A stretch of 64,000 nucleotides of DNA, taken from Microlunatus kandeliicorticis. Lineage in GTDB: Bacteria > Actinomycetota > Actinomycetes > Propionibacteriales > Propionibacteriaceae. The translations under genes were made by a program, and so were the position numbers. The notes below the pieces were generated by a model. It saw only the letters and a program-made list of their open reading frames with translations. It did no database searches and was not told the DNA's origin. The DNA lies in contig NZ_JACGWT010000002.1 in assembly GCF_014137855.1 (NCBI RefSeq), positions 744,001 through 808,000 on the forward strand. Reading direction: 5' to 3'. Positions 6,336 to 30,751 of the stretch are shown here, piece after piece (the stretch's first letter is position 1; every line of letters starts with the position of its first letter).

Positions 6336-6432
6336 ACTGCCGAATTTGGCTCTATGAGATCAAGGCGGCTCGCTGCGCTCGCCGCGGCTGCGGTCCGTGT
6401 CCTCACTCGCTGCGCTCGCTGCGGGCCGGTCC
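6336..6432. repeat. Flank repeat A, copy 1
   Basis: A segment beginning CTGCCGAATTTGGCTCTAT, then GAGATCAAGGCGGCTCG, then a low-complexity stretch of CGCTGCGCTCG motifs ending GCTGCGGGCCGG. A closely related segment occurs at 30175-30240 in the same orientation. It contains AAGGCGGCTC (6362-6371), which matches the last bases of the tRNA fragments at 9396, 10521 and 30737. It forms the left edge of an inserted-looking module ending at 9410. Confidence 0.75.
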
Positions 6433-8298
6433 TCGCTCCTCGCGGCCCTCTGGCAACGTGGGATGCCGCCAAGCTATTCGATGCGCTGACGGAACGACAT
6501 TGAAGGGCTGCTGGCTCCATTGAATTCCAATCTGAGCCAACTTCTTTGACTGCCTCCTTGGTAGGTGCATCTGAAGACCAAGAAACTGAATAATCGCTAC
6601 AATAAGCAAGAAAAGCGCGGCTAACGCCACCGTATAAACCGCAAGCGCGGATGCGCCACCCGTCTTTTGAGTGAATTGCACTACAACTGACTCTTGAGGA
6701 AACATCCCGGAAACAATGGTAATCGCATCACGCAACGCCGGCAGGCCAAAGACTACGGTGCCGATCAGACCAAGAAGTGTGAAAAAACCGGCACGTCGAT
6801 CTCGCTTCTCTGCCACAAATGCCTGGGACACCGCATGTAGACCGTTAACACGGTCCTTCAGTCGTTCATAAAGTTGATCGGCATTCGACATCCCGAGCAA
6901 CCTATCGACGACTGCCTGCAACTGGATCTGGCTGTGGAACCGGCGCTTGTACTCAACGAGACCCGCTGCAAGCTGCATCTGCGCCCACAAGAGTTTTCGC
7001 CTGGTTTGGCTTGGATTAGATGTCGCCTCATCGATCATGGTCAGCTGCCAGAATTGCAGCAAATACTGCTCAATTGCGGATACGACTGCAAATTGCGAAA
7101 ACAGCACGTTCGTCGATGCCCTTCGACGCACGTGCAACGCATTGCCCACTGCAAGCCAAAGGGACTCGCTATCTTGGAACATGACGTCCTCCAAGACTTC
7201 ATCGAGCGCGCGCCCTCGCAGTACAACCTCCCCTTTACCTAAGCGCGAGATGACGGACCCGAGTTCTGTCTTGTGATCCTCAACGAGGCTGAGGCAGCAG
7301 CCTTTCTGGCCATCACAGAATAGCGTGGTGTACCAGAGCCAATAGGAAGTAGTTAGACCGAGAACTGAAAGTAAGCTGTCGAGGTAGAGCACGCCCAAGT
7401 CTTCGGGAGCAAATGGGTACGACTGTTCTTGGGTGTCTTCAGCAGGGCTAAAGACGACAGTCTTCGCTCCTTCTGAAATTGCCGGCTGCTCTACGCCGTC
7501 AATGAGTCGTTTTTCGCGGAAGATTGGCCTACATTGGCCAACAATGTCACTCGACACTTCAACCTCCCGCAGAAACTGGGTGGTTACGGAAGAAAGCGCA
7601 GTGAGGTGGCCGACATCTCCAAGACTTTCATTCGGGAAGACTAGCGTTAGTATCGCCGCCCCTGACCGATGGAGTGTCAACCAGACCATCACCTGCCGCG
7701 GCTCGCCGTCGACTCCGTCGTCCGCCCACCTGACAAAGGCGGGTCGAGCCTGAAGACGCACATACGGCTCAGACTCTAGATATCCGTAACTATAGACAAA
7801 TTGATCAACTGCGTTCCGAAGGCCACCAAGTATTTGGGCTTCTTCCACAGCCACTGCGGCCGCCTGTCGCAAACTTGCTAGTTCCGCGATTTGTGCGTCG
7901 TATCTACCAGACCCGGAACGCTCTTCTTTCGCGTCAATGTTTTTACGCCTTAACAGCGCTGGCAGAAAGATCTTCGCAGACAGCAAGGGGTGGGCGGTCA
8001 GCAAGCTCGACATGCGAACTTCCTGGTCATTCAGCCTTGTCATGAAGTCGATAATCGAGTCTAGATCACGCTGTGATTTTTCGACATATTTAAATCTGTG
8101 GGCGACACGCACAGAAGCTTCAGCCGGCGTCGTTGAGGTTCGCGCCCAACCGACCCGGAGCAGCCTTTCCGCGGCACTGGAGAGATCTACGCCAGCCGCT
8201 AGTGAAAAGGCCATGCTGTAGACGGAGGTCTGTGCATAGAGATTGAGCGGATGCACGGTCGGTTTGCGACGATGCCAGTACATTACAGCATTGTACAT
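6403..8298 (-). CDS. Large protein with two C-terminal membrane helices, unknown family
   Basis: 631 residues, family not recognised. About 500 N-terminal residues are predicted soluble, with mixed alpha/beta content and a helical stretch (LYERLKDRVNGLHAVSQAF) leading into two membrane segments at about 505-529 and 551-575, then a basic tail. The soluble-stalk-two-helix layout resembles CorA-type proteins in outline only; no GMN motif is present. G+C is clearly lower than in neighbours, with rare codons, indicating transfer. The last 14 residues (EGREERGPARSERS-type) are encoded by flank repeat A, so the original C-terminus may have been altered. The start is the ATG at 8298; 8283 is possible. 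It is divergent from the 8525 gene. Confidence 0.7.
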   Translation of the reverse strand: MYNAVMYWHRRKPTVHPLNLYAQTSVYSMAFSLAAGVDLSSAAERLLRVGWARTSTTPAEASVRVAHRFKYVEKSQRDLDSIIDFMTRLNDQEVRMSSLLTAHPLLSAKIFLPALLRRKNIDAKEERSGSGRYDAQIAELASLRQAAAVAVEEAQILGGLRNAVDQFVYSYGYLESEPYVRLQARPAFVRWADDGVDGEPRQVMVWLTLHRSGAAILTLVFPNESLGDVGHLTALSSVTTQFLREVEVSSDIVGQCRPIFREKRLIDGVEQPAISEGAKTVVFSPAEDTQEQSYPFAPEDLGVLYLDSLLSVLGLTTSYWLWYTTLFCDGQKGCCLSLVEDHKTELGSVISRLGKGEVVLRGRALDEVLEDVMFQDSESLWLAVGNALHVRRRASTNVLFSQFAVVSAIEQYLLQFWQLTMIDEATSNPSQTRRKLLWAQMQLAAGLVEYKRRFHSQIQLQAVVDRLLGMSNADQLYERLKDRVNGLHAVSQAFVAEKRDRRAGFFTLLGLIGTVVFGLPALRDAITIVSGMFPQESVVVQFTQKTGGASALAVYTVALAALFLLIVAIIQFLGLQMHLPRRQSKKLAQIGIQWSQQPFNVVPSAHRIAWRHPTLPEGREERGPARSERSE

Positions 8299-8524
8299 AG
8301 ACCGAGCACGTAAAGTCGTGTGGCTCTAGAAGCCACCACGGAATTAGTCGCCTCAGCACTGCGGCTCGGCCAGCCGGAAGCCACTAATACCGGAGCGCCG
8401 TTGAACATTGCTTGGGCATACATAATATGTCATGCTGCCTGCCTTCACTGAGGGGTTCAGGAAATCTTGACCTTGGGTGGCCCCCCGAGTCGAGCGTCCC
8501 GACTAGCTTTGTCGCGAAAAGTTG

Positions 8525-9055
8525 ATGCAGACTTGCCCGATGGGACTCGAGAGGGCGCAGGCGGCCTGGGAGCGAGCAGCGCGAATGGTCGCCGACCTGA
8601 GCGCTCACGCTAGCAGCGGTGCGCCCTTCGAGTTCCCGGACAGACTCCCTTACGTCCTTGATCTCTTGGCAGGCGTGAGACGACAAATTAATGAAGGCCT
8701 CAAGTCCGCTAGCCCAACTGTCCTAGCGTGGTGGCGCTCGCAGCTCACCCCGCGCCGCCGAGCCATCACTGAGATGCGCAACGCAGCCTTGAAGAGGCTC
8801 GATCAGCAAGTGGAAGAAGCCGGCTTTTTTCAGGTTTTCAGTTCTGATGGCACGATCAAGACAACAACTACCTCACTGATGGGCGAGTCAACCAGCCAAA
8901 GAACGGTCCCCTCTGGGGACGTTGTACGTATCTCGACGGGCTGGCAGTTCGTCGGAGGCATCTTCAATGGCGAGGACGTGCTTCGAGTTGTGAGAGAGGA
9001 GCTTGACGACCTTGCGAAGCTGCTCGTTGAAGCCAAGCGGCGCGCTGGTGAGTGA
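8525..9055 (+). CDS. Hypothetical protein, partner of the 631-residue protein
   Basis: 176 residues, no recognised family. The N-terminal two thirds are helical (ERAQAAWERAARMVADLSAH; LPYVLDLLAGVRRQINEGL). A short beta-rich segment follows (TIKTTTTSLMGESTSQRTV; DVVRISTGWQFVGGIFNG) and a final amphipathic helix. No signal or membrane segment is present. I start at the ATG at 8525; one at 8540 is possible. It is divergent from the low-GC 631-residue gene across 226 bp, shares its composition, and sits inside the same flank A to tRNA-fragment module, so the two probably travelled together. Confidence 0.6.
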   Translation: MQTCPMGLERAQAAWERAARMVADLSAHASSGAPFEFPDRLPYVLDLLAGVRRQINEGLKSASPTVLAWWRSQLTPRRRAITEMRNAALKRLDQQVEEAGFFQVFSSDGTIKTTTTSLMGESTSQRTVPSGDVVRISTGWQFVGGIFNGEDVLRVVREELDDLAKLLVEAKRRAGE

Positions 9056-9360
9056 CTGTCTCGGTGACAACACTGCGGGCGGTGAGCCTATCGATGTCGA
9101 CGGGCACGGACGGCATCGACGCTCAGGATGCGTTCCGCGAACCGTAAAAGGGTGATTCGCATGCAGCAGTCCCGCCCAGCTTGAAGGCCGGGGGAGCGAC
9201 GCTGGACGCCACGGCTGCAATCCGGCGCCGCGGCAGATCTGCAAGGTGGCGTCGTCCGGCAGCCATGATGGCAGCCAAGCTCGTGCAACGGCCCTGACTT
9301 CGACACCCTTGAGTGGACACTCCCAGGCGGAGGCGGGCGAAGCAGGGCGTCCCGCGGCCG
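9056..9360. other. Non-coding stretch before tRNA fragment 1
   Basis: No gene is supported here on either strand. Open frames on the minus strand running through it are antisense to the tRNA fragment that follows. I see no promoter or terminator of note. The 280 bp after the fragment (9411-9689) are likewise empty apart from the leader of the next gene. Confidence 0.5.
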
Positions 9361-9410
9361 ACTCGTAATGCGTAGGTCCGGGGTTCGAATCCCCGAGGCG
9401 GCTCCCACCA
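9361..9410 (+). other. tRNA-Thr(CGT) 3'-half fragment (candidate att site), copy 1
   Basis: The sequence from ACTCGTAATGCGT through GGTTCGAATCC to AGGCGGCTC is the anticodon loop (anticodon CGT), anticodon 3' strand, T-arm and 3' acceptor strand of a threonine tRNA. The upstream bases cannot pair: the anticodon stem would need ACGCA, and no matching 5' acceptor strand is present, so this is not a working tRNA. Such 3'-half copies are typical remnants of tRNA-directed integration. 46 of 50 bases match the copy at 30702-30751. Confidence 0.8.
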
Positions 9411-9689
9411 CGACAGCTGATCGGTCTCCTCGTCCACTTCCTTGGTCCTGTCGATCGGACCAGTTGGCCAGCCGGTTCGGTTCACCTCCAGCCCGTACGA
9501 GGGGCCTCGAGGACGCGATCCCGCTGGTCGGCGACGGCCAGCGGCCGTCGCCGCAGACCCGGCGCTGTGCCTTGTTCGCTGAGTGGTCGTGCCCTGACAA
9601 CCGCGCGCACCCGATGAATTCGGCCCGGACCCGAGGTCGACCGCCTTGAGACCACCGAAAGCCACCGCCACTGCCACCCCGGAGGACCT

Positions 9690-10355
9690 GTGAAGCTCCT
9701 GCTGACGTCTGGCGGCGTCACCAACCCGTCCATCGAGGCCGCGCTGACCGGCATGCTCGGCAAGCCGGTCGCTGAGGCCGACGCACTCTGCATCCCGACG
9801 GCCCAGTGGGGTCACCCGGACTGTGGGCCGGCGTCCGTCCGCGGCTTCGTGCAGGGCGTGCCGCCGTGGAACCTGACCGGCCTGCCGTGGAGATCGGTCG
9901 GCGTCCTCGAGCTGACCGCGCTGCCGAGCATCGGCGCCGAACGCTGGCAGCCCTGGGTCCGCGACGCCGATGTGCTGCTGGTCGACGGTGGCGACGCGAC
10001 CTACCTGGCCCACTGGATGCGTGCTTCGGGGTTGGCCGAGCTTCTCCCCGACCTGACCGACACCGTGTGGGTCGGGATCAGCGCCGGCAGCATGGTGATG
10101 ACGCCCCGGATCGGGGAGACCTTCGTCACCTGGCACGGGGCCGCCGACGACCGCACGCTGGGTGTCGTCGACTTTTCGATCTTCCCCCACCTGGACTACC
10201 CGGGCTGGGAGACCAACACGCTCGCCCGCGCCGAGGCCTGGGCCGCCCGGATCGGCAGTCCCTCCTACGCCCTCGACGAGCAGAGCGCGATTAGCGTCGT
10301 CGACGGCGAGGTCACCGTCGTCTCCGAGGGCCGCTGGCGCCGGTTCCCGGGCTGA
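9690..10355 (+). CDS. Peptidase E-like protein (S51 family)
   Basis: 221 residues with the S51 / class-I glutamine-amidotransferase-like fold. The nucleophile elbow is GISAGSMVM near residues 130-138, where the family uses Ser in GxSAG. The early strand MKLLLTSGG and DADVLLVDGGDATYL near 88-102 match the family's core strands. Family members cleave Asp-Xaa dipeptides or act on cyanophycin; which applies is unknown. The start is a GTG after CCGGAGGACCT. The gene lies between tRNA fragments 1 and 3, so it may be part of the integrated material. Confidence 0.8.
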   Translation: MKLLLTSGGVTNPSIEAALTGMLGKPVAEADALCIPTAQWGHPDCGPASVRGFVQGVPPWNLTGLPWRSVGVLELTALPSIGAERWQPWVRDADVLLVDGGDATYLAHWMRASGLAELLPDLTDTVWVGISAGSMVMTPRIGETFVTWHGAADDRTLGVVDFSIFPHLDYPGWETNTLARAEAWAARIGSPSYALDEQSAISVVDGEVTVVSEGRWRRFPG

Positions 10356-10486
10356 GGGCGACCGACGCCCGTGGCTCACCGGTCCGGCGAGCCCGCTGGC
10401 GACAGCCCGCATGCTCTCGAGTCCGCCGACGGCTCAGAGCCGTGACCTCTGGACGAGGGTGAGGCCGGTCGGCTGTCAGGTGACCA

Positions 10487-10530
10487 ACTCGTCATGCGTC
10501 GGCCCTCGTGCAAATCCTCGAGGCGGCTCC
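10487..10530 (+). other. tRNA-Thr 3'-half fragment, degenerate copy 3
   Basis: ACTCGTCATGCGTCGG through AAATCCTCGAGGCGGCTCC aligns along its length with the fragment at 9361 with one gap and roughly ten substitutions, mostly in the T-arm. AGGCGGCTC (10521-10529) is preserved. It is therefore an older copy of the same site, 1.1 kb from copy 1, with the peptidase E gene between them. Confidence 0.65.
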
Positions 10531-10543
10531 GCAGCCGGGTCAG

Positions 10544-11323
10544 TCAGGCGGTTCCGCTGATCGCGGTGCGGAGGACGACGTAGATCGCGACGAGGAGGAC
10601 CAGGACCGCAAAGCCGCGGCGAAGCTTGAGTCCGGAGAGTTTGGGTGCGAGCCGGCCGGCGGCCAACGCGGCGACGACACTGGCTGCGGTGAACGCGGTG
10701 GCGACCGACACGTCGATGGTGGTGTCGCCGAGGTGAGCGACCAGGGCTGACGCCGAGTTGGCGACGATGACCACGAGCGAGGTGGCGGTGGCCGCGGCCA
10801 TCGGGAGCCCGAGGAGCAGGGTCAGCGCGGGGATGATCAGGAAGCCTCCGCCGACGCCGAACAGCCCGGTGAGGAAGCCGACGACCACACCGGCCGCGGC
10901 CGCCTTGGGGAGGCAGCTCCGCCAGTGGACGCCACCGCCCGGCAGGGCGCAGGAGCCGCCGACGGCGTCCCCGCTCCGCAGCATCCGCACGGCAGCCGCG
11001 ATCATGACCGCGGCGAAGCCGAGCAGCACGATCGACGGATCGAGCAGCTTGTTGACCGCGGTGCCGGCAAAGGCCGCGACGCCTCCGGTGACGGCGAACA
11101 CGAGGGCCAGCCGCCACTGCACCTGCTTGAGTCTCGGGAGGGCGCCGGCCGCCGAGGAGAGCCCGACGACCAGCAGCGAGGTGGGCACCGCCTCGGCCAG
11201 CGGGAGCCCGACTCCGTAGACGAGAGCGGGGACGGCCAGGATGCTGCCGCCACCGCCGAGCAGCCCGAGCAGTGCGCCCACCACCAGACCGAACGCGGTG
11301 GCGAGGACCAGGGTGCCGATCAC
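10544..11323 (-). CDS. TauE/SafE-family sulfite/sulfur exporter
   Basis: 259 residues, a membrane protein with about eight hydrophobic segments in two halves. Each half starts with the family's glycine-rich motif (GALLGLLGGGGSILAVPAL and GFLTGLFGVGGGFLIIPAL). The family exports sulfite, sulfoacetate or related anions. The GTG at 11323 overlaps the stop of the preceding rhodanese-DUF2892 gene by 4 bp, so it is the last gene of the leftward persulfide operon. Export of sulfite produced by persulfide oxidation is the likely role (known for cst operons; inferred here). Its end abuts tRNA fragment 3. Confidence 0.9.
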   Translation of the reverse strand: MIGTLVLATAFGLVVGALLGLLGGGGSILAVPALVYGVGLPLAEAVPTSLLVVGLSSAAGALPRLKQVQWRLALVFAVTGGVAAFAGTAVNKLLDPSIVLLGFAAVMIAAAVRMLRSGDAVGGSCALPGGGVHWRSCLPKAAAAGVVVGFLTGLFGVGGGFLIIPALTLLLGLPMAAATATSLVVIVANSASALVAHLGDTTIDVSVATAFTAASVVAALAAGRLAPKLSGLKLRRGFAVLVLLVAIYVVLRTAISGTA

Positions 11324-11928
11324 GAGGCCGGGCCGGCCGGAAGTCGGTCCAGCAGGGCCTGGTCGCCGGGCTGGCCGGCTCGGTTGTAGGGCAGCTTCCC
11401 GAGCAGCCGGGCCATCGTGCAGGTGTCGGTGAGCGCCGAGACGGCGAGGCCGGCGCCGATGCCGCCGGAAAGGATCAGGGTGAACGACGTCAGTCGGCTG
11501 GTGAGGACACCGAGGAGCACGAGTCCGCCGGCCACCATCCGAACCTGCCGCTCCATCGCCCACCGCGACCGTCCGGTGGTGACGGTGCCACCGGCCTGCG
11601 CGTAGCCGTCGACACCGCCGGTGAGGACGTGCAGGTTCGCCATGCCGACGGCGGCGAGTCGCTGTCGGGCCTGGTCGGCTCGGACCCCGGACTGGCAGAC
11701 GAGGACCACCTTGCGGTCCAGCCGTGCGGCCAGCGCAGCGGCATGCTCGCCGACGAGGTGCAGAGGCAGGTTGAAGGAGCCGGTGATGTGGCGGGTCTCG
11801 AACTCGCCCGGGGTGCGGACGTCGAGGACGGTGACAGCGTCGGGGTCGGCGGTCATCCAGGCGAGCACGCTGGACGCGTCGACCGGGCTGGCCTGGTTTC
11901 GCGGCGGGTGCTGGTTCGTTCGCGTCAC
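11320..11928 (-). CDS. Rhodanese with C-terminal DUF2892 membrane domain
   Basis: 202 residues. Residues 15-115 form a rhodanese domain with active-site Cys in LVCQSGVRAD. A DUF2892 domain with two membrane helices follows (residues about 130-190) and ends in the characteristic TCTMARLLGKLPYN segment. It should handle sulfane sulfur at the membrane face. The GTG start at 11928 is preceded by GGAAG at 6 nt. It is 11 bp from the upstream rhodanese and overlaps tauE by 4 bp: clear operon structure. Confidence 0.9.
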   Translation of the reverse strand: MTRTNQHPPRNQASPVDASSVLAWMTADPDAVTVLDVRTPGEFETRHITGSFNLPLHLVGEHAAALAARLDRKVVLVCQSGVRADQARQRLAAVGMANLHVLTGGVDGYAQAGGTVTTGRSRWAMERQVRMVAGGLVLLGVLTSRLTSFTLILSGGIGAGLAVSALTDTCTMARLLGKLPYNRAGQPGDQALLDRLPAGPAS

Positions 11929-11939
11929 GGGATCTTCCC

Positions 11940-12304: not shown

Positions 12305-12308
<4 letters not shown>
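11940..12308 (-). CDS. Single-domain rhodanese (sulfurtransferase)
   Basis: 122 residues, one rhodanese domain spanning almost the whole protein. The active-site loop is VCRSGRRS near residue 75, with the usual LLLDVREADEW strand and LDGGMAAW near the end. It transfers sulfane sulfur between persulfides and acceptors. Its ATG overlaps the stop of the dioxygenase gene (ATGA, 12305-12308), so translation is probably coupled. It is the second gene in the operon. Confidence 0.92.
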
Positions 12309-14532: not shown

Positions 14533-15831
14533 TCAGCGGCGGTCGGCGGAGCTCCGGGCGGCCTCGACCCGGGCGATGTCGCGGTCGTCCGGTCCAGCCG
14601 CGTGGAACTGACGCACCAGCGCGGACTCCTGGTCGCGCAGCGCGGTCTGGACGGCCGGATCGTCGGAGACCCGACCGATCCGCATCCGCAGATCCAGGAG
14701 GGCGAGCACCACCTCGGTGGACGAGACGGCATAGGTGCGGATCTGGTCGAACGCGAGGTCGACCAGCTCGGCGACGCCCACCGGACGGACGAGCAGGCGC
14801 ACCTCGCCGTCACGCCCGAGCTGCCCCGGTGGATCGCCCAGCTCGCTGATCATGGTCAGCCCGGTGCCGATCTCGAGGATCGCGTTGATCGCGGTGTAGG
14901 GGTCGTTGGTGCCGCTCGACAGCGCCCGGACCGCCATCTCGGCGAGCTGTAGGACGGCGTACCGCTGGTCCTGGTGCGGCGTCCGCGAACGCCCGAAGTC
15001 GAGGTGACGCCGCAACCGCTGCTCGACCCGCTGAGGCAACTCCCCCACGCTGCGGAACTCGATCAACGGATCGCCGGCCACCACGTGGTCCCCGACGCGG
15101 ATCAGCAGCCGCGCCCAGCCGTGCAGTTCGGCGGTCGTCTCCACCAGTCCGCGGTAATCCACGTGCCGGAGGAAGCCGTGGTCCTCGGCGCGGAGGACGA
15201 GATCGGCTCTCGACTCGCCCGTCGGGTCGAGCACGACGTTTCCGGGCACCGCGAGATCGCGGTGGTCGTCGAAGCGCAGGCTGCTCTGAAGATCCTGGAG
15301 GACGCGGGCGGCGAGGTTGGCGATCTGGATCGACTCGGCGATGTGGTGGATGAAGTAGATCAGCACCGCGACGTCGAGCACGGCCAGCCCGATCGCCAGC
15401 GTCACCGCGAGGTGCGGCACGAACTCCGGACCGGCGGACGACTGCTCGCGCACCGACCGCAGCACCAGCAGCGCATAGAGGAAGGTGGCGCCGAAGGTGC
15501 CGAGCACCAGCTGGTTGCCACGGTCGGCCATGAAGTTGCGGACCAGGCGCGGGCCGTAGGTCGAACTGGCCGTGGCGATCACCGAGATGGTGATCGAGAA
15601 CGACGTCGCCGCCACCCCGAGCATCGATCCGCCGATGGCGGCCAGCAGGTCCCGGCTGCCCGAGGCGCCCACGTTGTTGACCAACGGCAGGCCGGCGACG
15701 CCCCGACCGACCAGGTCGCGGTCGAGCCCGACCAGGACCTCGGCGAGCACGGCGGCCACCGCCAGCAGGACCGCAGGGACGAACCAGAACGACTCCACCA
15801 CCGAGGCGAGCCGTTGACGCAGAGAGTGCAC
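14533..15831 (-). CDS. DUF2254 membrane protein
   Basis: 432 residues. Four membrane segments lie in the first 170 residues (for example FWFVPAVLLAVAAVLAEVL and HLAVTLAIGLAVLDVAVLIYFI). A soluble C-terminal half follows with the family motifs GTNDPYTAINAI and a regular helical end. The function of DUF2254 is not established. It lies 28 bp downstream of the LmeA-like gene and is probably the last gene of the leftward cluster that starts at the rhodopsin or its regulators. It converges with cstR. Confidence 0.85.
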   Translation of the reverse strand: MHSLRQRLASVVESFWFVPAVLLAVAAVLAEVLVGLDRDLVGRGVAGLPLVNNVGASGSRDLLAAIGGSMLGVAATSFSITISVIATASSTYGPRLVRNFMADRGNQLVLGTFGATFLYALLVLRSVREQSSAGPEFVPHLAVTLAIGLAVLDVAVLIYFIHHIAESIQIANLAARVLQDLQSSLRFDDHRDLAVPGNVVLDPTGESRADLVLRAEDHGFLRHVDYRGLVETTAELHGWARLLIRVGDHVVAGDPLIEFRSVGELPQRVEQRLRRHLDFGRSRTPHQDQRYAVLQLAEMAVRALSSGTNDPYTAINAILEIGTGLTMISELGDPPGQLGRDGEVRLLVRPVGVAELVDLAFDQIRTYAVSSTEVVLALLDLRMRIGRVSDDPAVQTALRDQESALVRQFHAAGPDDRDIARVEAARSSADRR

Positions 15832-15859
15832 GGCGCAGCCTAGCGGGAGGGCGTGACGG

Positions 15860-16606
15860 TCACGGCTGGACCACGATGCCGTCCCCGACCGCGGTGATCA
15901 CCAGCCCGTCGTCGGTCGCGCTGATGCCGCTCAGTCGCTGCGAGAACGGGAGCGATCCGAGCGGGATGGTGACGGTGAGCCGCTGACGCAGCAGGAGGCG
16001 TGCGGTGGCCCCGAGCGTGCCTCCGTTGGTCGAGACGGTCTGTGGGATCAAGCGGAGGTTGCCGTCGGTGACGGCGAGCCCGACCTCCGCACTCGCCTCG
16101 AGCCGTTGGTCAAGCACCTGCACCGTCCCGGTCAGCCGGACGCTCTGGTCGCCCTCGGCCCGGCTGATCGTGAGACGACGACCGGTGGCCGTGAAGTACC
16201 GGTTGAGCGCGTCGTAGGTCAACCGCACGGTGGCGTCGGAGTGGCCCACCCCGATGGTCCGGACGTCGCGGACCAGGACGTCGTGGAAGGGCACTCGGAC
16301 GTCGGTGAGCCGGGCGTCCACCCGGGCGATGGTCAGCGGTCCGTCGTGCAGGTCGTCGACCCGGACGTCGACCTCGTCGTAGGCGCCGCGGACGACCTGG
16401 GGGAGGAACAGCCCACCTCCGATGTCCACCGACGGCGGCCGGCTGCTCCCGGTCGCCGAGGCGAGGTCGCGGGAGATCAGGTCCTCAGCGGAACGCCGGG
16501 CGAGCCGATCCCCGGCCCAGCCGAGAAGCAGCAGGGCGATCACCACGGCGACGGCAGCCGTCCAGGAACGCGAGCGTCGCGCGGATCGGCTGGAGTCAGG
16601 CACGCT
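15860..16606 (-). CDS. DUF2993 / LmeA-like lipid-binding protein
   Basis: 248 residues. A single N-terminal membrane segment (residues about 14-33) anchors an extracytoplasmic DUF2993 domain, which in mycobacterial LmeA binds phosphatidylinositol lipids. Family hallmarks include VRGAYDEVDVRVDDL and the long beta-rich body. I choose the GTG at 16606 because AGGAGG lies 6 nt upstream. It overlaps the end of the MMPL transporter gene by 11 bp. Pairing with an MMPL transporter suggests a role in moving envelope lipids. Confidence 0.82.
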   Translation of the reverse strand, partial: SVPDSSRSARRSRSWTAAVAVVIALLLLGWAGDRLARRSAEDLISRDLASATGSSRPPSVDIGGGLFLPQVVRGAYDEVDVRVDDLHDGPLTIARVDARLTDVRVPFHDVLVRDVRTIGVGHSDATVRLTYDALNRYFTATGRRLTISRAEGDQSVRLTGTVQVLDQRLEASAEVGLAVTDGNLRLIPQTVSTNGGTLGATARLLLRQRLTVTIPLGSLPFSQRLSGISATDDGLVITAVGDGIVVQP

Positions 16607-19513: not shown

Positions 19514-20536
19514 TCAGCGGTTCCGCCCGGCGTCACCCGGTCGCTCGGACAGTACACCGAGGTCGAGAGCGCCCACGATGATCAGGTGCGGAACCGTCAG
19601 CGCGAACAGGGCGCTGAAGGCGGACGCGGCGAGACCCGAGCCGCTGCGAGCCAGGACGACCAGCGCCGCCGTCCCGGTCAGCGCCAGCCCTGTGGGTACA
19701 GCGGCCGCGCGCAGGAACCGGCCGACCGGTGCCGCCCGGCGACCACGGCGGAGATCAGCTTGGTTTTCCGGCTGGCTCTCGATCATCCGAGCCGAGTGGC
19801 GCAGGCCGTGCCAGCCGCCGAAATAGACCCCGAAGGCCGCCAGCGGGGGCACGCAGCCGAAGAGGGCGAGCAGCGCGATCAGCTCGACCACCGTGAGCGG
19901 ATCGTGGCGACGCCCCGCCTCCACCAGGCTCACGGCCACACACCCGACCAGCAGCGCGATCAGCGCGAGTCGGATCGTCGGGGTGGCCGGGTGAGCCCCG
20001 GGCGCGACGGCGCGCAGCATGCGGTCCGTCCGTGCGGGCCAGACAGCGAGCGGGAGGACGACGGCCGGCAGACCGCGGGCGAGAACCGCGCATCCGAGCA
20101 GGAGTCGGCGCATGCGCGGGCGCGTCGTAGGCCCCGCGAGCCGCCCCCGGTCGGCCATCACGTCGCCGACACCGAAGTGCAGCACCGACAGCGCGAGCAG
20201 CACCAGCAGCGCAGCGGGACCGACCAGCCGTAGGGTCACCAGCACGGTGGCGGCCAGCGCGAGATAGCCGCCGAGGACGACGGTCATGGCCCGCGCCCCC
20301 GACCGCAGCCGGCCGGTCCAGAACGGCACCAGGTGGTCGACGGCCCCATGCGGCATCCCGATGACGATCCCGATCGCCAGGACGACCGGACCGCCCCGCT
20401 CGAGCACTACCGGATCGGCGAGCCCGAGCGCGACGGCAAGACCGGCGAGCACCAGCGAGCACCGGACCGCCGCCCGTTCCCACCGCACCGGCGACGGGTC
20501 GGGGCGGACGGTGACCGCGTGCTGGACCTGGGTCAC
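19514..20536 (-). CDS. blh: Brp/Blh-family beta-carotene 15,15'-dioxygenase
   Basis: 340 residues, an integral membrane enzyme that cleaves beta-carotene to two retinals. The His-rich iron-binding motifs are all present: GMPHGAVDH, LSVLHFGVGD, YFGGWHGLRH and LTVPHLIIV. Eight or more hydrophobic segments surround them. The start lies 2 bp past the rhodopsin stop, so translation is coupled. It would supply the chromophore for the adjacent rhodopsin. No beta-carotene synthesis genes are in the window, so those must lie elsewhere. Confidence 0.95.
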   Translation of the reverse strand: MTQVQHAVTVRPDPSPVRWERAAVRCSLVLAGLAVALGLADPVVLERGGPVVLAIGIVIGMPHGAVDHLVPFWTGRLRSGARAMTVVLGGYLALAATVLVTLRLVGPAALLVLLALSVLHFGVGDVMADRGRLAGPTTRPRMRRLLLGCAVLARGLPAVVLPLAVWPARTDRMLRAVAPGAHPATPTIRLALIALLVGCVAVSLVEAGRRHDPLTVVELIALLALFGCVPPLAAFGVYFGGWHGLRHSARMIESQPENQADLRRGRRAAPVGRFLRAAAVPTGLALTGTAALVVLARSGSGLAASAFSALFALTVPHLIIVGALDLGVLSERPGDAGRNR

Positions 20537-20538
20537 GA

Positions 20539-21393
20539 TCAGCGGACCGTGGCGCCGACCGGTCGGGCGTCGGCGAGGCGCTCACCGGAGACGAACACCG
20601 GATCCGGGTGCGGGGCCTCGCCGTCGGCGACCTCGGAGCCGGTGCGGTGCTTGGCCACGGTGTGGATGAAAATCCCAAAGCCCACCTTGGCGGCGATGTC
20701 GGCCAGGGTGAAAGCCAGCTGTCGTCCCACGGCCCACCCGGAGGAGTCGGCGAAGAAGAAGGGCACGCAGTAGGCGAGTGGGTAGACGCCCCAGGTGAGT
20801 GAGAGCAGCAGGCCGGCGCTCCGCAGCGCCGATCCGGCCGGCCCACCGAGGGCTTTGGCCGAGCGGAACGCCGTCCGCAGCAGCAGCACGTAGAGCGGGA
20901 TGAAGACGACGGTCGAGATCAAGCCCCAGACCAGTCGCCCGGTGTCGCTGGAGAAGGTGTCGGCACCGAGGAAGCCGGTGACAATCATCAACCAGGCCAA
21001 CACGATCAGGAGACCGCGCATCCGACGGGCCGCCCGCCCGACCAGGGTGGAGACCACCACGATCTCGACGGTCAGCAGCGGCACGGTGACCGACCAGTCG
21101 ACGTACCGGTAGGCGTTGCGGAACTGCAGCGCGTGACCGGACGGGACGTACATCGCGGTGCCCGGATCGAAGCGGAAGCCGACGATCCAGGAGATGATCA
21201 GCAGCAGGTAGGCGAGAAAGGCGACCAGGCAGACGATCGAGCCGGCAATGCCGGAGGACCGGAACCGGGCCGAGATCTCCCGCTTGGTGCTCAGCAGATA
21301 GACGAAGCCGCCCAGCAGGGCGAAGGCGGCCATCACGAACGAGGCCAGCACGATGTCCCACTGGGACTGGGTGAAACTGAGATGACTCTCCAC
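20539..21393 (-). CDS. Type-1 microbial rhodopsin, predicted light-driven proton pump
   Basis: 284 residues, seven membrane helices. Helix C reads RYVDWSVTVPLLTVE, giving D99 (counterion/acceptor), T103 and E110 (donor): the DTE signature of proteorhodopsin and xanthorhodopsin-like pumps. Leu107 at the spectral-tuning site predicts green absorption. The retinal Lys is K236 in LADIAAK, with D232 as second counterion. The VWGLIST stretch in helix E has Gly157 where antenna-binding pumps have their fenestration. Helix B has Ala61 where nearly all such pumps have His. I choose the GTG at 21393 (GAGGAG 5 nt upstream). It is followed by blh at 2 bp. Confidence 0.95.
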   Translation of the reverse strand: MESHLSFTQSQWDIVLASFVMAAFALLGGFVYLLSTKREISARFRSSGIAGSIVCLVAFLAYLLLIISWIVGFRFDPGTAMYVPSGHALQFRNAYRYVDWSVTVPLLTVEIVVVSTLVGRAARRMRGLLIVLAWLMIVTGFLGADTFSSDTGRLVWGLISTVVFIPLYVLLLRTAFRSAKALGGPAGSALRSAGLLLSLTWGVYPLAYCVPFFFADSSGWAVGRQLAFTLADIAAKVGFGIFIHTVAKHRTGSEVADGEAPHPDPVFVSGERLADARPVGATVR

Positions 21394-21444
21394 GAACACT
21401 CCTCATCGATGTCCGGGTCATTACCGCCCGGCTCGTGAAGAGCA

Positions 21445-25022: not shown

Positions 25023-25632
25023 CGACGGGCGACCCACCGGTCCTCGGATCGCGCCCGTCCAGCGAGGCGCCGGGTTGCTGGCCTTCGTGTTGTGCGCGGC
25101 TGGCGTCCTCGGCTTCGTTCCCGGGGTCACCGAGCACCTCGACCGGTTGGCCGTGGCCGGTCCTGGCTCGCAGGCAGAGCTGTTCGGACTGGTCAGAGTG
25201 TCGGTTCTGGTCAACGCCCTGCACCTGGTGGCAGGCGGGCTCGGCCTCCGAGCGGTCCGGCGGGGTCCGGCGTCGTCGGTCCGCTATCTGGCGGGGCTGG
25301 CCGTCGTCTTCTTCCTGATGTTCGCCTGCGGGGTGGAGACCCGGGCCGGGTCCGCAGCCAATTTCCTTCCGGTCGACGATGCGGCGACCTTCGTCAACAT
25401 CGCGACCGTGGTGGTGGCGCTCGTCTTCATGATCTTCCTCAACCGGACCGGCCCCGACGTCGTCCGTGAGGTCTACGTCAGCCCGGACCTGCCGTCCGGG
25501 GAGCCGCCGGCCTGGGTGGACGCGCCCGTGGTGATCGCCCCGCCGGTCGATCTCCGCGGTGCCACCGTGACCGGCCGCGAGCCGCCGCAGGCCATCACGA
25601 AGACCGCATCCCCCGGCGACAAGAACCCCTGA
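25006..25632 (+). CDS. DUF4383 membrane protein, copy 1
   Basis: 208 residues with four membrane helices: residues about 20-38, 62-82, 92-110 and 128-146. The order and the signature FLNRTGPDVVREV after helix 4 match DUF4383. The function of the family is unknown. The C-terminal 50 residues are polar. The GTG overlaps the previous gene. A second copy with the same signature lies at 31717-32292, 6.7 kb away. Confidence 0.85.
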   Translation: MTRWSDDGRPTGPRIAPVQRGAGLLAFVLCAAGVLGFVPGVTEHLDRLAVAGPGSQAELFGLVRVSVLVNALHLVAGGLGLRAVRRGPASSVRYLAGLAVVFFLMFACGVETRAGSAANFLPVDDAATFVNIATVVVALVFMIFLNRTGPDVVREVYVSPDLPSGEPPAWVDAPVVIAPPVDLRGATVTGREPPQAITKTASPGDKNP

Positions 25633-25736
25633 TGCGGCGTCGGCCCGGGCACCGTGGCCCGCGCCGGCGGCGCATCAGGTCAGACGATCGAGAAGCCAGT
25701 GCAGTGCAGACGCGAACGACACCAGGAGAGGACGCC

Positions 25737-26747
25737 ATGACACAGGTCGTGGTCATCACCGGGGCATCCGGTGGGATCGGCCGAGCGGTGGCCCGGGAGT
25801 TCGGCAGCCGAGGGGCCAGGGTCGCTCTGCTGGCCCGGGGCGAGACCGGGCTGCAGGGAGCCGCCGAGGACGTGCGGAACCGTGGCGGACAGGCGTTGGT
25901 GATCCCGGTCGACGTCTCCGACGCCGATGCCGTCGAGGCCGCCGCGCAGCGGGTGGAGGACGAGCTCGGGGAGATCGACGTCTGGATCAACGTCGCCTTC
26001 ACCGCGGTCTTCAGCCGGTTCTGGCACGTCAGCCCCGCGGAGTACAAGCACGCGACCGAGGTGAGCTATCTCGGTTACGTCTACGGGACGATGTCGGCGC
26101 TGAAGCGGATGATGGCGCGCGACCGGGGCACCATCGTCCAGGTCGGGTCCGCGCTGGCTTATCGCGGCATCCCGTTGCAGACCGCGTACTGCGGGTCCAA
26201 GCACGCGATCCAGGGCTTCAACGAGTCGCTGCGCTGCGAGCTGCTGCACGAGAAGAGCAATGTGCACACCACGATGGTGCAGATGCCGGCCGTCAACACC
26301 CCGCAGTTTTCCTGGGTGCTGTCCCGGCTGCCTGACCATGCTCAACCGGTGCCGCCGATCTACCAGCCGGAGGTGGCCGCGCGCGCGGTCGTCTACGCCG
26401 CCGACCACCCGCGGCGGCGTGAGTACTGGGTGGGGGCGAGCACGGTCGGCACGCTGCTCGGGGACAAGTTCTTCCCTGGTCTGCTCGACCGCTATCTAGG
26501 CTGGAAGGGCTTTTCCTCCCAGCAGACCGGCCAGCCCCGCGACCCGGATCAGCCGGTGAACCTGTGGGAACCGGCCGACGGGCCCGACGGACGGGACTTC
26601 GGAGCTCACGGGGTCTTCGACGACCGGTCGCAGTCCACCGCGCCGCAGCTGTGGTTCTCCCACCACCACAAGACCCTGATCGCGGGTGGTCTCGCTCTCG
26701 TCGCGGGCGTCGGCACGGCGGTGGCGCGAAAGCTGGCGTCCCGGTGA
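25737..26747 (+). CDS. SDR-family oxidoreductase
   Basis: 336 residues: a short-chain dehydrogenase domain (1-250) with cofactor motif TGASGGIGR, WINVAF in place of NNAG, catalytic Ser in VGSALAYRG and YCGSKHA (YxxxK). After this it has a C-terminal extension of about 85 residues ending in a hydrophobic segment (HKTLIAGGLALVAGVGTAVARK), suggesting membrane association. Long SDRs with this tail are common in actinomycetes and cyanobacteria; their substrates are unknown. The ATG follows AGGAGAGG. The next gene overlaps its stop by 4 bp. Confidence 0.9.
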   Translation: MTQVVVITGASGGIGRAVAREFGSRGARVALLARGETGLQGAAEDVRNRGGQALVIPVDVSDADAVEAAAQRVEDELGEIDVWINVAFTAVFSRFWHVSPAEYKHATEVSYLGYVYGTMSALKRMMARDRGTIVQVGSALAYRGIPLQTAYCGSKHAIQGFNESLRCELLHEKSNVHTTMVQMPAVNTPQFSWVLSRLPDHAQPVPPIYQPEVAARAVVYAADHPRRREYWVGASTVGTLLGDKFFPGLLDRYLGWKGFSSQQTGQPRDPDQPVNLWEPADGPDGRDFGAHGVFDDRSQSTAPQLWFSHHHKTLIAGGLALVAGVGTAVARKLASR

Positions 26748-27103
26748 GCGGCCGGCTCGGCGGCCTGCGACCGGTCGGCGTGCTGGGTCTCGCCTGGGGC
26801 GCGGTGCTGCTGTCGCGCGGGGACCAGCTCTTCGCGAGCCTAGAGGGTCGGCTGGCCGTGGGCATCGAGTCGGACGCGATCACCGTGCTCGGTCTGCGGC
26901 ACGCCGGGCAGGGACTCGTGCAGCTCATCGCGCCGAGGCGGTTCGCGCGCCTCTACACCGGGATCGACCTGCTCCACGCGGCGTCCATGGTGGCGCTCGC
27001 CGTCCGTGACCCCACCCGTCGGCGGGCCGCCGGGGTGAGCGCGGGAGTGGCGGCACTCTCGGCCGCGGCGTCCGCTCGCTCGGCCGGCTTTGGCCGCCGG
27101 TGA
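26744..27103 (+). CDS. Small membrane protein in SDR-GH15 operon
   Basis: 119 residues with hydrophobic stretches near 9-25, 75-92 and 97-112. The GTG overlaps the SDR stop (GTGA) and its own stop overlaps the GH15 start, so it is translated as part of the same operon. Its pattern (GVLGLAWGAVLLSRG; LRHAGQGLVQLIAPRRFARLYTGIDLLHAASM) resembles small actinomycete proteins annotated as hypothetical. No function can be assigned. Confidence 0.7.
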   Translation: MSGRLGGLRPVGVLGLAWGAVLLSRGDQLFASLEGRLAVGIESDAITVLGLRHAGQGLVQLIAPRRFARLYTGIDLLHAASMVALAVRDPTRRRAAGVSAGVAALSAAASARSAGFGRR

Positions 27104-28857
27104 CCACGCAACGGCCGCACGGCCTCGAGGCGGACTACCCTCCGCAGGCGCTGCGCGACTACGCCCTGATCGCCGACGGCCACCGCGGTGCCCTGATCGG
27201 ACCGCGCGGCGACATCACCTGGCTGTGTGCGCCGCGCTGGGACTCCCCGGCCGTGTTCAGCCACCTGGTCGGCGGGGACGGGCTGTACGCCCTCACCCCG
27301 GACGCACCGTTCGTCTGGGGCGGCAGCTACGAACCGGACTCGATGATCTGGCGCAGTCGCTGGGTCGCCGACGACACGGCCACCGTGCAGTCGCGCGAGG
27401 CGCTGGCCTATCCCGGCGAGGCCGACCGGCTGGTCCTGCTCCGACGCGTCTGGTCCACCGGAGGCCCGGCCCGGGTGTCGGTGTTGCTCCGGGTGAGCGC
27501 CGAGTTCGGACGACGACCGATGGAGCGTCCGAAGCTGGATCAGCACGGTCGTTGGACCGCGCGGGTCGGGGAGCTGCGGCTCCGCTGGTCCGGCGCGGCT
27601 GCCGCGCGATGGGAGGACCACGCACTCCGGCTCGAGCTCGACCTGGACCCGGATCGTCCGCACGACCTCGTGCTGGAACTGAGCGACCGGCCGCTGGCCG
27701 ATCCCGTCGACCCGGACCAGGCCTGGTCGGCCACCACACAGGCGTGGACCGAGCAGGTGCCCGACCTCTCCCGGACGGCGGCGCCCCGTGATGCCGCGCA
27801 GGCCTACGCGGTACTGCGCTCACTGACTGATCCCGGCGGCGGCATGGTGGCGGCGGCGACCCTCGGCCTGCCCGAACGAGCCAAAGCCGGGAAGAACTAC
27901 GACTACCGCTACGCCTGGATCCGTGACCAGGTCTACGCCGGCCTGGCCTGCGCAGTCGACGAGCCCTTGCCGCTCTTCGATGACGCCGTCGCCTTTACCA
28001 CGGCCCGACTGCTCGAGCACGGGGACGCGCTGTCGCCGGGATACCGGGTGGACGGCTCACCGATCCCGGGGGAGGAGCAGCTCGACCTGCCCGGATATCC
28101 CGGGGGCACCGTCGTCGTCGGGAACTGGGTGCGCCGACAGTTCCAGCTCGACGCTCTGGGCGAGATGCTCGAACTCCTGGCCGCCGGGTTGCGACTCGAC
28201 CGACTGGACACCCATCACGTCGAGGCGATCGACCTGGCGATCGACGTGATCGCGCGACGGTGGAACGAGCCCGAAGCGGGGATCTGGGAGCTCGACGACG
28301 CCTGGTGGACGCAGTCCCGGCTGGCCGCCGTGGCCGGACTGCGGGCGGTCGCCCACGAGCTGCCGGCCAGCCAGGCCGGCCGCGCGGCGACCCTGGCCGA
28401 TGCGGTGCTCGCCGAGACGGGACGCCGCGCGCTCGGGACCGACGGCGCGTGGATGCGCAGCCCGGACCATCCGGGAGTCGACGCCTCCTTGCTGCTGCCC
28501 GCCGTCCGCGGAGCGTTGCCCGCCGACGATCCGCGGACCGTCAACACCCTGGCCAAGGTCGAGGCGGACCTGGTCCAGGACCACCACGTCTACCGCTATC
28601 GACCCGACGGTCGACCGCTCGGTGAGGCCGAAGGCGCCTTCACGCTGTGCGGGTTCATCATGAGCCTCGCCCACCTGCAGCAGGGCAATGCCGTCGCCGC
28701 CTACCGCTACTTCGACGTCCAACGCACGGTGTGCGGTTCGCCGGGAATCCTCACCGAGGAGTTCGACGTCCAGCAGCGGCAGCTGCGCGGCAACACCCCT
28801 CAGGCCTTCGTCCACGCGATGCTGCTCGAGACCGCCCAACGACTGGGACGCGCCTGA
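27100..28857 (+). CDS. Glycoside hydrolase family 15 protein
   Basis: 585 residues: an N-terminal beta-sandwich (about 1-230) and an (alpha/alpha)6 barrel. Key barrel motifs are NYDYRYAWIRD near 265-275 and GNTPQAFVHAML near the C-terminus; the acidic pair EEFDVQ is just before it. Family members are glucoamylases, glucodextranases or trehalases; a cytosolic location is implied by the absence of a signal peptide, which fits trehalose or glycogen metabolism. The start overlaps the previous stop by 4 bp. Confidence 0.92.
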   Translation: MTTQRPHGLEADYPPQALRDYALIADGHRGALIGPRGDITWLCAPRWDSPAVFSHLVGGDGLYALTPDAPFVWGGSYEPDSMIWRSRWVADDTATVQSREALAYPGEADRLVLLRRVWSTGGPARVSVLLRVSAEFGRRPMERPKLDQHGRWTARVGELRLRWSGAAAARWEDHALRLELDLDPDRPHDLVLELSDRPLADPVDPDQAWSATTQAWTEQVPDLSRTAAPRDAAQAYAVLRSLTDPGGGMVAAATLGLPERAKAGKNYDYRYAWIRDQVYAGLACAVDEPLPLFDDAVAFTTARLLEHGDALSPGYRVDGSPIPGEEQLDLPGYPGGTVVVGNWVRRQFQLDALGEMLELLAAGLRLDRLDTHHVEAIDLAIDVIARRWNEPEAGIWELDDAWWTQSRLAAVAGLRAVAHELPASQAGRAATLADAVLAETGRRALGTDGAWMRSPDHPGVDASLLLPAVRGALPADDPRTVNTLAKVEADLVQDHHVYRYRPDGRPLGEAEGAFTLCGFIMSLAHLQQGNAVAAYRYFDVQRTVCGSPGILTEEFDVQQRQLRGNTPQAFVHAMLLETAQRLGRA

Positions 28858-29577
28858 ATGGAGGCGACCGGCACCTTCCCCGGGTGGCTGGACCGATTGG
28901 CCACCGTATCGCTCCTGCTGGCGGCCCTGTGCGCCGTGCTGGTGCTGATCGACGTGATCCGGCGGCCGCAGCCGATGGCGGTGATGAACGTGGTCTGGCC
29001 GATCACGATGCTCTTCGGGAGCGTGCTGTGGCTCGCCTTCTATCGGGCGAAGGGTCGGGCGCCGCTGCGCGGCCGCGACGACGACGCGCCGGACCGTTCG
29101 ATGCGGGTGTCGGTGGCGGTTGGAGCCAGTCACTGCGGGGCCGGCTGCACGCTGGGAGACATCGTCGGAGAATTTGCACTGGTGCTGCTCCCGGGACTGG
29201 CGGCCGTGTTCGGTCTCGGGTGGCTCTGGCCCGACCGGATCTTCGCCGCCTGGACGCTCGACTTCGTGCTGGCCTTCGCGATCGGGATCGTCTTCCAGTA
29301 CTTCTCCATCGCCCCGATGCGGGGGCTCGGACTCTGGGCCGGCCTGCTGGCGGCGATCAAGGCCGACACCGCCTCGATCACCTCCTGGCAGGTAGGCATG
29401 TACGGCCTGATGGCCGTCGGCCAGTTCTGGTTGTTCCCCCTCTGGTTCGGCGGCCGCGCCGAGGCGACCTCACCGGTCTTCTGGTTGCTCATGCAGCTGG
29501 CCATGATCGTCGGCTTCGGCACGGCCTACCCGGTCAACTGGCTGCTGGTCCGGCGCGGGGTCAAGGAGAAGATGTGA
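28858..29577 (+). CDS. DUF4396 membrane protein
   Basis: 239 residues with six or so hydrophobic segments. The family signature GASHCGAGCTLGDIVGE at about 90-106 has two conserved Cys that could bind copper or another metal; the family is uncharacterised. The start immediately follows the GH15 stop, and the next gene overlaps its end by 4 bp, so all are in one transcript from 25737 to 30077. Confidence 0.85.
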   Translation: MEATGTFPGWLDRLATVSLLLAALCAVLVLIDVIRRPQPMAVMNVVWPITMLFGSVLWLAFYRAKGRAPLRGRDDDAPDRSMRVSVAVGASHCGAGCTLGDIVGEFALVLLPGLAAVFGLGWLWPDRIFAAWTLDFVLAFAIGIVFQYFSIAPMRGLGLWAGLLAAIKADTASITSWQVGMYGLMAVGQFWLFPLWFGGRAEATSPVFWLLMQLAMIVGFGTAYPVNWLLVRRGVKEKM

Positions 29578-30077
29578 CGGCGTCGGTCGGCAGCTCGCGC
29601 TCCGTGGCTCGGCTCGGTGCCGCGCTGCTGCGACAGCGGTGGTTCGTCCGCGCGCCGATCCTGCTCTACCGGTGGCACCTCGGTGCGCTGGTGGGTGACC
29701 GTGTGCTGCTGCTCGAGCACCTCGGCCGCAGGTCGGGCCAGTGGCGCACGGTCTGTCTCGAGGTGGTCGACCGACCCGCCCCGTCCGCGCTCGTCGTGAT
29801 CAGCGGCTTCGGTCGACGCTCCCAGTGGTTCCGCAACCTGCAGGCCAATCCGGTCTGCCGGCTCAGCGTCGGGCGGCTGCGTCGGGTCGACGCCCGCGCC
29901 GTCGTGCTCTCCGAAGCGCAGACAACCGACGTCCTGGCCCGGTATGCCGACCGTCACCCGGCAGCGTGGCGGCGCCTGCGCGACGTGTTGACGGAGACGC
30001 TCGATGCCCCGACCGCGGTCCCGCCGGCGGTCAGGCTCGAACTCTGCGATTTGGGTAGCAAAAGCCGTCGAATCTGA
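29574..30077 (+). CDS. Deazaflavin-dependent nitroreductase family (DDN-like) protein
   Basis: 167 residues, a split-barrel protein. RAPILLYRWHLGALVGDRVLLLEHLGRRSGQWRT and VVISGFGRRSQWFRNLQANP are the classic DDN motifs that contact cofactor F420. Such enzymes reduce nitroaromatics or quinones. The GTG overlaps the DUF4396 stop by 4 bp. It is the last gene before flank repeat A copy 2, which begins 98 bp later. Confidence 0.88.
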   Translation: MTASVGSSRSVARLGAALLRQRWFVRAPILLYRWHLGALVGDRVLLLEHLGRRSGQWRTVCLEVVDRPAPSALVVISGFGRRSQWFRNLQANPVCRLSVGRLRRVDARAVVLSEAQTTDVLARYADRHPAAWRRLRDVLTETLDAPTAVPPAVRLELCDLGSKSRRI

Positions 30078-30174
30078 CATCCGACAGCCGTTCAGTTGGA
30101 CGACGACCGCGGCGGACCGGCGAGCCAGCACGTCGAACGCCTCGGGCCTGGTCAACGACACTGTCAACGCCACG

Positions 30175-30240
30175 AACTGCTGAATATGGCTCTAGGGGAT
30201 CAAGGCGGCTCGTGTCCTCGCTCCGCTGCGGGCCGGGCCG
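30175..30240. repeat. Flank repeat A, copy 2
   Basis: CTGCTGAATATGGCTCTAGG then GGATCAAGGCGGCTCG then TGTCCTCGCTCCGCTGCGGG. It aligns with copy 1 (6336-6432) except that about 30 bp of low-complexity CGCTGCGCTCG repeats are missing. AAGGCGGCTC is at 30202-30211. It opens a short module that closes at the tRNA fragment at 30703. Confidence 0.75.
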
Positions 30241-30286
30241 CCCAAATCAGGTAGCTGGCCGCACCACGCGCCCACGAGCTGAGTGG

Positions 30287-30560
30287 TCAGCCTGGAAAGT
30301 CCTCCGGAGGCGGCTTGATGATTCGTCTGATCAGCATGCCGATCCCGGTCCCGAGCAGCACGGCACCCAGCGTCACCAGAGTGCCCCAACGGTGTCGAAA
30401 GACGCCTGACCAAAGCCCGTACAGACCGAAGCCGACCCATACACACCGCCGATGCGATCGATCCACTGACGCACACGACTCCGCCCGCGAGCCCGACCGG
30501 CGTCTCTCCGCACGAGCGCACCATAGGCCAGGGTGGCTCGGAAGAAGCCCGTGGGAGGAA
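30287..30560 (-). pseudogene. Remnant of a LysE/RhtB-type exporter C-terminus, frameshifted
   Basis: One minus-strand frame from about 30549 reads GFFRATLAYGALVRR then RVRQWIDRIGG, the usual last loop of LysE/RhtB exporters. Near 30444 the similarity moves to another frame, continuing VWVGFGLYGLWSG and a further hydrophobic stretch to 30287. Joined across a one-base shift, the two halves give a sensible membrane C-terminus. The N-terminal four helices are absent; upstream is the tRNA fragment. It therefore looks like a truncated, decayed gene. The rest of 30078-30876 holds no intact gene. Confidence 0.45.
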
Positions 30561-30702
30561 AGGCTGAGGACCAGGCGAGCCTTGATCGGTGCCACCGACA
30601 TGCCCCCGCCGCCTCGTGGTCAGTCATCGGTACGAGTCATTACCCATCGATGCCGGAGCCTCCACGAGAGGCGCCAGGGCCTGCCATAAGACCGCGGAAT
30701 TG

Positions 30703-30751
30703 CTCCTAATGCGTAGGTTCGGGGGTCGAATCCCCGAGGCGGCTCCCACCA
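30703..30751 (+). other. tRNA-Thr 3'-half fragment (candidate att site), copy 2
   Basis: CTCCTAATGCGTAGGT, GGGTCGAATCCCCG and AGGCGGCTCCCACCA match the fragment at 9361 at 46 of 50 positions, in the same orientation. One difference changes the anticodon triplet (CGT to CCT). No 5' half precedes it, so it is not a tRNA gene. It closes the module that begins with flank A copy 2. Confidence 0.8.

Follow-up and report, generated by a model that had tools for sequence, protein, structure and literature searches.

Why does one 64,000-nucleotide stretch of the Microlunatus kandeliicorticis genome (C2:744001-808000 of an assembly of 4.30 Mb in 9 contigs; hereafter the window) carry, twice and in the same order and orientation, a short sequence termed flank A followed by a 3' fragment of a tRNA-Thr gene, with unlike cargo between them? 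The first-pass annotation of this DNA had offered two readings, a site-specific cassette system or the repeated use of one integration hotspot. Our analysis supported the second, as an integrase gene lies at the complete tRNA-Thr(CGT) gene and two attR-like fragments come after it. The arrangement is probably the result of two actinomycete integrative and conjugative elements (AICEs) inserted successively at the 3' end of tRNA-Thr(CGT), and flank A would be their lagging-strand origin, belonging to the family of sti, the single-strand origin (sso) of plasmid pIJ101.

Flank A was matched by a profile (model R1) at window 6336-6431 (49.2 bits) and 30176-30272 (46.6 bits), both on the plus strand, and the two copies were 82% identical to each other over ~57 bp in BLAST (E 1e-7 on the genome scale). 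The sequence at window 9361-9405 was identical to the 3' part of the complete tRNA-Thr(CGT) gene at 45 of 45 nt, and that at 30703-30746 had two mismatches within the last 34 nt, the last 21 being identical. When the 4.30-Mb genome was searched for the tRNA-Thr 3' end with a 24-mer allowing up to three mismatches, three copies only were found, namely the complete gene and the two window fragments. The distance from flank A to the tRNA fragment was 3.0 kb in the first module and 0.54 kb in the second. Model R1, BLAST and the tRNA comparison together confirmed the two modules, with like flanks in the order, orientation and spacing first noticed.

The complete tRNA-Thr(CGT) gene lies at C2:721159-721232, 22.8 kb left of the window, and the integrase gene that the first-pass annotation had suggested looking for at such a tRNA is present beside it. 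This tyrosine integrase gene (C2:721266-722471, minus strand; Pfam Phage_integrase, E 1.5e-26) has its 3' end 33 bp from the tRNA end. The same strand carries a small xis-like frame between the integrase and RepSA genes, a RepSA-type initiator (C2:722838-724358; PF20199, E 1.7e-72, with 385 of the 506 aa submitted to Pfam) and an FtsK/TraB-like protein (C2:724355-725839; PF01580, E 3e-9), the last of which scored far under the NCBIfam plasmid_TraB cut-off and was 26% alike to pIJ101 TraB over 227 aa. These left-end genes were called with a simple gene caller, and the families were assigned by Pfam and NCBIfam. The first four criteria used for an AICE, a tyrosine or serine integrase at a tRNA, a RepSA-type or other AICE Rep, TraB/FtsK, and attL/attR direct repeats, were all found in this element, the direct repeats being the 45-nt identity. 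Its GC content is 64.4%; the sequence ahead of the tRNA has 74.0% and that following the first fragment 70.6%, with the step at this fragment. On the basis of the gene set, the tRNA identity and the GC step, the plus-strand fragment at 9361-9405 was taken as the attR of the element. By its gene content, the newer element is an AICE of 32 kb extending from its left end (C2:721159-725839) to its right part at window 1-9405 (plus strand), for which excision, replication and transfer are predicted.

As judged by alignment, flank A is a member of a family of ~100-bp elements that includes a copy on pIJ101, copies on Streptomyces plasmids and copies in AICEs. The profile R1 was built on 24 copies, five of them from M. 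kandeliicorticis, and the other copies of the genus were outside the training set. The 24 aligned copies share as their core a box of the type TTTCTCTAC-NNN-ATCAAGG and, after it, G+C-rich sequence able to form hairpins. The profile detected the family at 41 places in 14 of 20 genomes of the genus (E up to 0.01), six of which are in M. kandeliicorticis (the two in the window, C2:338k, C2:597k, C6:213k and C1:90k), and in 25 of 148 genomes of the class, representing 11 of 82 genera (E up to 1e-4 and stricter filters). Plasmid searches recovered the element on rolling-circle plasmids of Streptomyces and on AICE-like plasmids, and a pattern scan of genome contigs gave 10 stretches, four of which had the same motif and hairpin (Pseudonocardiales, Phytoactinopolyspora and two Streptomyces). 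A strict 25-mer matched only the M. kandeliicorticis genome across 57 genomes, which is a matter of sensitivity, since the profile later matched most genomes of the genus. Megablast of the module against plasmids gave no match, and Rfam up to E 0.5 gave nothing at the element in four loci. A 15-nt pattern occurred in at least 120 stretches of viral sequences, and the best scored among 80 loci agreed at 20 of 46 positions, with little beyond the pattern. A plasmid match of 41 bp (H1, Gryllotalpicola) and a phage match (H15) were taken for chance.

The surroundings were studied for 34 copies, comprising 28 of the 41 genus places (six from M. kandeliicorticis and 22 from seven relatives, mostly the stronger ones) and six from a genus of the class presumed to be Streptomyces (g22). 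The nearest Int, Rep or TraB homologue was looked for upstream only and within 25 kb. Such a gene was found for 29 of the 34 copies, always on the opposite strand (29 of 29); the AICE core belonging to the copy at 6336 has this orientation as well and lies just past the 25-kb limit. A second set comprised 26 loci from plasmids and genomes, including the six g22 places; 17 of these loci had a core gene and agreed in polarity, and nine had none. Downstream of the element, in the same orientation and within 13 kb, the 3' fragment of the AICE's own tRNA was found for 24 of the 34 copies (23 of 28 in the genus and one of six in g22). The further copies with a tRNA fragment after them, which the first-pass annotation had proposed to search for, were therefore found, and they involve seven kinds of tRNA in the genus (Thr, Ile, Ser, Ala, Glu, Lys and Met). 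In M. kandeliicorticis, all six copies have a fragment of their own tRNA after them (Thr twice, Ile, Ser, Ala and Glu). A control with 23 chosen copies of the genus, leaving out G005 642k, 666k and 413k, G012 61k and G009 2520404 (the unchosen figure being 23 of 28), gave the matching tRNA tail in 22, and other isotypes gave none in 362 trials. Since the tRNA after it is of seven kinds, flank A belongs to the constant part of the element rather than to the attachment site. The attR downstream and the isotype control thus give a rule for the right end of AICEs, which runs from the presumed sso through optional cargo to attR. The pattern of same flanks is turned by it into a testable rule, and the element into a short sequence marker for the hard-to-see right end of AICEs, including gutted remnants such as the one at 30176.

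The distance from the element start to attR was 254-547 bp in 10 of the 24 copies and 1.5-10.5 kb in the other 14, in one of which (G009 2520404) another copy lies between. Six of the 10 short-spaced copies share stretches of ~100-400 bp between the element and attR despite different tRNAs, as in G005 (Thr) and G006 (Ala) with 90% over 260 bp. This end block contains a second inverted repeat, GTCAAGGG...CCCTTGAC, in some sequences, and is not common to the two M. kandeliicorticis copies compared.

The function of flank A is suggested by its relatives. The alignment and model R1 relate it to pIJ101 positions 7272-7355, in a stretch free of listed genes (7209-7673), and a pIJ101 frame with the spdA motif is found at 7970-8482 on the minus strand. 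In the accessible text of Thoma et al. (2014), spdA2 lies between rep and the single-strand origin sso (sti) on pIJ101 (PMC4170104); given this order and the position of the frame, the pIJ101 element is on the side expected for the sso. The same source reports accumulation of single strands in pIJ101 without the sso, and such origin activity for both pIJ101 and pSN22 (PMC4170104). In the pIJ101-derived vector AY667410, sti is given as positions 4366-4441, 76 bp (PMC11985553, as far as available). The copies described here resemble the presumed sti/sso of pIJ101 in the element family, the polarity to rep, the stretch without listed genes and the size of ~80 bp; they differ in being on integrated RepSA elements, also outside Streptomyces, and the M. 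kandeliicorticis copies deviate in the 3' half. The RepSA of M. kandeliicorticis gave E 8.9 with pIJ101 Rep, and the same element beside differing Rep families fits an origin read by the host.

Two other known systems are instructive here. The pSAM2-type AICEs, as far as the consulted portions of PMC3218068 and PMC9513070 describe them, have the same tyrosine integrase at a tRNA 3' end, RepSA, FtsK/TraB, att-tra-rep-int-att order and tandem arrays, but here a sti-like origin was mapped at a constant position ahead of attR. Neither paper uses the term "sso" in its main text, and no prior description of a sti-like sso beside the attR of AICEs was found in the literature searched, the coverage of which is limited, making this weak evidence of absence. 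AICE accretion and sti are already known, and the sti-like sso beside attR would appear to be undescribed. The sso1 of ICEBs1 is orientation-specific and matters for maintenance and acquisition, according to the accessible part of PMC4595007. It is likened to flank A, by description and not by sequence, as an orientation-specific single-strand origin on an integrated rolling-circle element (PMC4595007); ICEBs1 differs in being transferred as a single strand, whereas pSAM2-type elements are described in the available text of PMC7433901 as transferred as double strand via an FtsK-like channel.

The following sequence of events is proposed. The newer AICE (C2:721.2-753.4k) would be read as tRNA-int-xis-repSA-traB-cargo-sso-cargo-attR, and the older one (753.4-774.7k) would have lost its core and kept sso and attR at its right end. 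As the anatomy and the kin of these elements suggest, the integrase would recombine attP with the tRNA end and the fragments would be left behind. Excision would join the ends at attP and thereby place the sso directly before attP and int. RepSA would start rolling-circle replication after excision, the displaced single strand would expose flank A, and host enzymes could prime the second strand there. This priming role is inferred from the pIJ101 element and the ICEBs1 sso, for an element whose anatomy, polarity, recurrence and link with attR were observed directly. Passenger genes would gather on both sides of the sso, giving cargo that differs between the modules. If true, a sti-like origin beside attR would explain how AICEs complete rolling-circle replication. 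We tentatively extend this, at rather less than even confidence, to AICEs across the Actinomycetes, which may own one family of host-read sso, selected to lie beside attP on the circle and, in some of these elements, inside a conserved end block of ~300 bp; second-strand synthesis would then come last before re-integration, and the stretch from sso to attR would be a docking zone of cargo gain and loss.

Several observations weigh against this explanation, the first of them concerning the older element. Its presumed body (window 9406-30175) is without integrase, Rep and TraB; to the right lie flank A copy 2 (30176-30272, plus strand), its presumed sti-like sso, and the diverged tRNA-Thr 3' fragment (30703-30746, plus strand), its presumed attR. 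No AICE core gene (int, rep or traB) was found by tblastn in the 9406-30746 block, the GC content of 70.6% is chromosome-like (72.3-74.0% in the flanks), and so are the genes recognised by Pfam (peptidase S51, MMPL, rhodopsin and beta-carotene dioxygenase, SDR and GH15). The core-free content and the GC content suit a reading of the 9.4-30.2 kb block as native chromosome, in which the 30703 fragment and the sso came by a separate small insertion or rearrangement instead of a tandem older element. Such an origin, which is compatible with flank A as sso, is possible but is the less favoured account, as the block sits between two tandem tRNA-Thr fragments, the best homologues of its peptidase S51 and GH15 are away from the tRNA-Thr locus in the relatives where both were located, and stacking at tRNA-Thr recurs in two relatives. 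In G019, tRNA-Thr is followed by fragments at 12.5 and 31.3 kb, with an element copy before each, and each of the two segments has an integrase and a Rep; at tRNA-Thr, two fragments are present in G006 and one in G005. As read from these fragments, tRNA-Thr stacking is present in three genomes of one genus (M. kandeliicorticis, G019 and G006). The synteny comparison of the 21-kb block in relatives showed no conserved neighbourhood. Tandem AICEs are already known in Frankia and S. avermitilis (available text of PMC3218068) and in a Streptomyces population, including a traB-less remnant (available text of PMC9513070).

Returning to the two-AICE explanation, the fragment at 30703 is most likely the attR of an older, gutted neighbour. 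Given the sso-like copy and the diverged fragment at its right end, the 21-kb block reads best either as an older gutted element that the newer one displaced or as a passenger block with att sites on both sides. A cis-mobilisable att-flanked block is known as a CIME, and the 21-kb block resembles one in being flanked by att-like fragments without a core mobility gene. It differs in retaining the sso-like copy, and its mobility would be putative.

The remaining points on the same side concern flank A itself. The five M. kandeliicorticis copies in the alignment are without the 3' box CGCTCCTGTCTCCGCCCC found in most Streptomyces copies. RNAalifold gave no consensus pair on the family alignment, and DNA folding of six copies was no better than that of shuffles (z -0.79 to +2.17), so the structural claim is weak. 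Five of the 34 copies, including both window copies, had no core gene within 25 kb upstream, and 10 had no attR within the sequence stretch examined. The pIJ101 element is tentatively equated with sti, in the sources as available, by its position past spdA2 and its size. The Rep of S. formicae was 34% alike to pIJ101 Rep over 56 aa (E 0.028), and the Rep families are thus not wholly unlike. Furthermore, a fixed polarity alone would also suit a terminator or another cis element. Flank A could be a strong bidirectional transcription terminator kept by AICEs at a conserved place, for which the G+C-rich hairpins in many copies and the position of the 6336 copy between convergent open frames would also speak. 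We regard this as improbable, because the strongest conservation is in the TTTCTCTAC-NNN-ATCAAGG box, ahead of the hairpins, the element is common to pIJ101-type plasmids and AICEs, and its pIJ101 position coincides with the sti region.

The constant polarity to the core genes and the position adjoining attP on the circle would likewise suit a double-strand origin (dso) nicked by Rep or a TraB-binding clt site. The same element is, however, found beside differing Rep families and beside TraB proteins that are 22-26% alike, and the dso and sso of pIJ101 are treated as separate in the accessible text of PMC4170104, which leaves a dso or clt identity of flank A quite improbable.

The first-pass annotation had also reported AGGCGGCTC at five sites. 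The window contains six occurrences (expected 1.74; one of 100 shuffles reaches six), and four of them fall within two features that are unrelated, flank A and the tRNA fragments. Both flank A and the acceptor end of the tRNA-Thr contain this string. Here flank A and the tRNA end match over at most 9 consecutive nt; 12 other sites keep the flank A sequence type with a longest common string of 5-7 nt, and the sharing is therefore best read as a coincidence. An integron or cassette system was likewise rejected, like recombination sites on both cargo ends not having been found. That flank A and the tRNA end are sites of one enzyme swapping cargo, with AGGCGGCTC as the crossover, is very unlikely: the order and orientation repeated twice, the 9-nt string and the unlike cargo would agree with it, but the common string shrinks elsewhere while the flank A type persists, the cargo lies between a replication-origin-like element and attR, no recombinase family was found by Pfam among the open frames between sso and attR (window 6403-8298, 8522-9055 and 30192-30524), and Streptomyces plasmids vary upstream of flank A too.

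The cargo between sso and attR of the newer AICE comprises an open frame of 631 aa (window 6403-8298, minus strand) and one of 177 aa (8522-9055, plus strand), neither of which had a Pfam, PADLOC or NCBIfam match. A 240-aa protein with resolvase-type helix-turn-helix stretches (window 5612-6334, plus strand; Pfam HTH_7, E 3.5e-12) ends just 5' of flank A and could bind the repeats of the AICE or the sso. These repeats of 27/28 bp (CGGTGGTCACGCGGA(C)GCGTGC..., with a small palindrome) form 19 clusters of 1-24 units each by a fuzzy count, all on the plus strand, which are interspersed among the AICE cargo genes (window 2180-5031; C2:729251-749021). A 20-mer of the repeat had 45 exact matches in the genome, all within this region, and none in 39 other genomes; the directional repeats look like separators of cargo units. 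At locus L014, three proteins were recognised in AICE cargo (L014:10063-10971, 15123-16142 and 7892-9097), namely one of the beta-lactamase family (PF00144), an APH-family phosphotransferase and an MFS transporter.

In the 21-kb block, a bacteriorhodopsin-like gene (PF01036, E 6e-30) adjoins a beta-carotene dioxygenase gene (PF15461, E 5e-45) at window 19514-21399 on the minus strand, and the pair would likely provide an att-flanked block with a rhodopsin and its own retinal supply. The peptidase S51 genes at window 9690-10355 and C1:84799-85455 are 71% identical and lie 0.3 and ~3.5 kb, respectively, outside an AICE attR. Six Streptomyces plasmids (L168 and L172-L176) have, ~500 bp after the sso, homologues (72-100%) of one 415-aa helix-turn-helix protein, and their upstream side is variable (polymorphic toxin-type and SUKH-3 proteins, GntR), with the break in homology just before the element.

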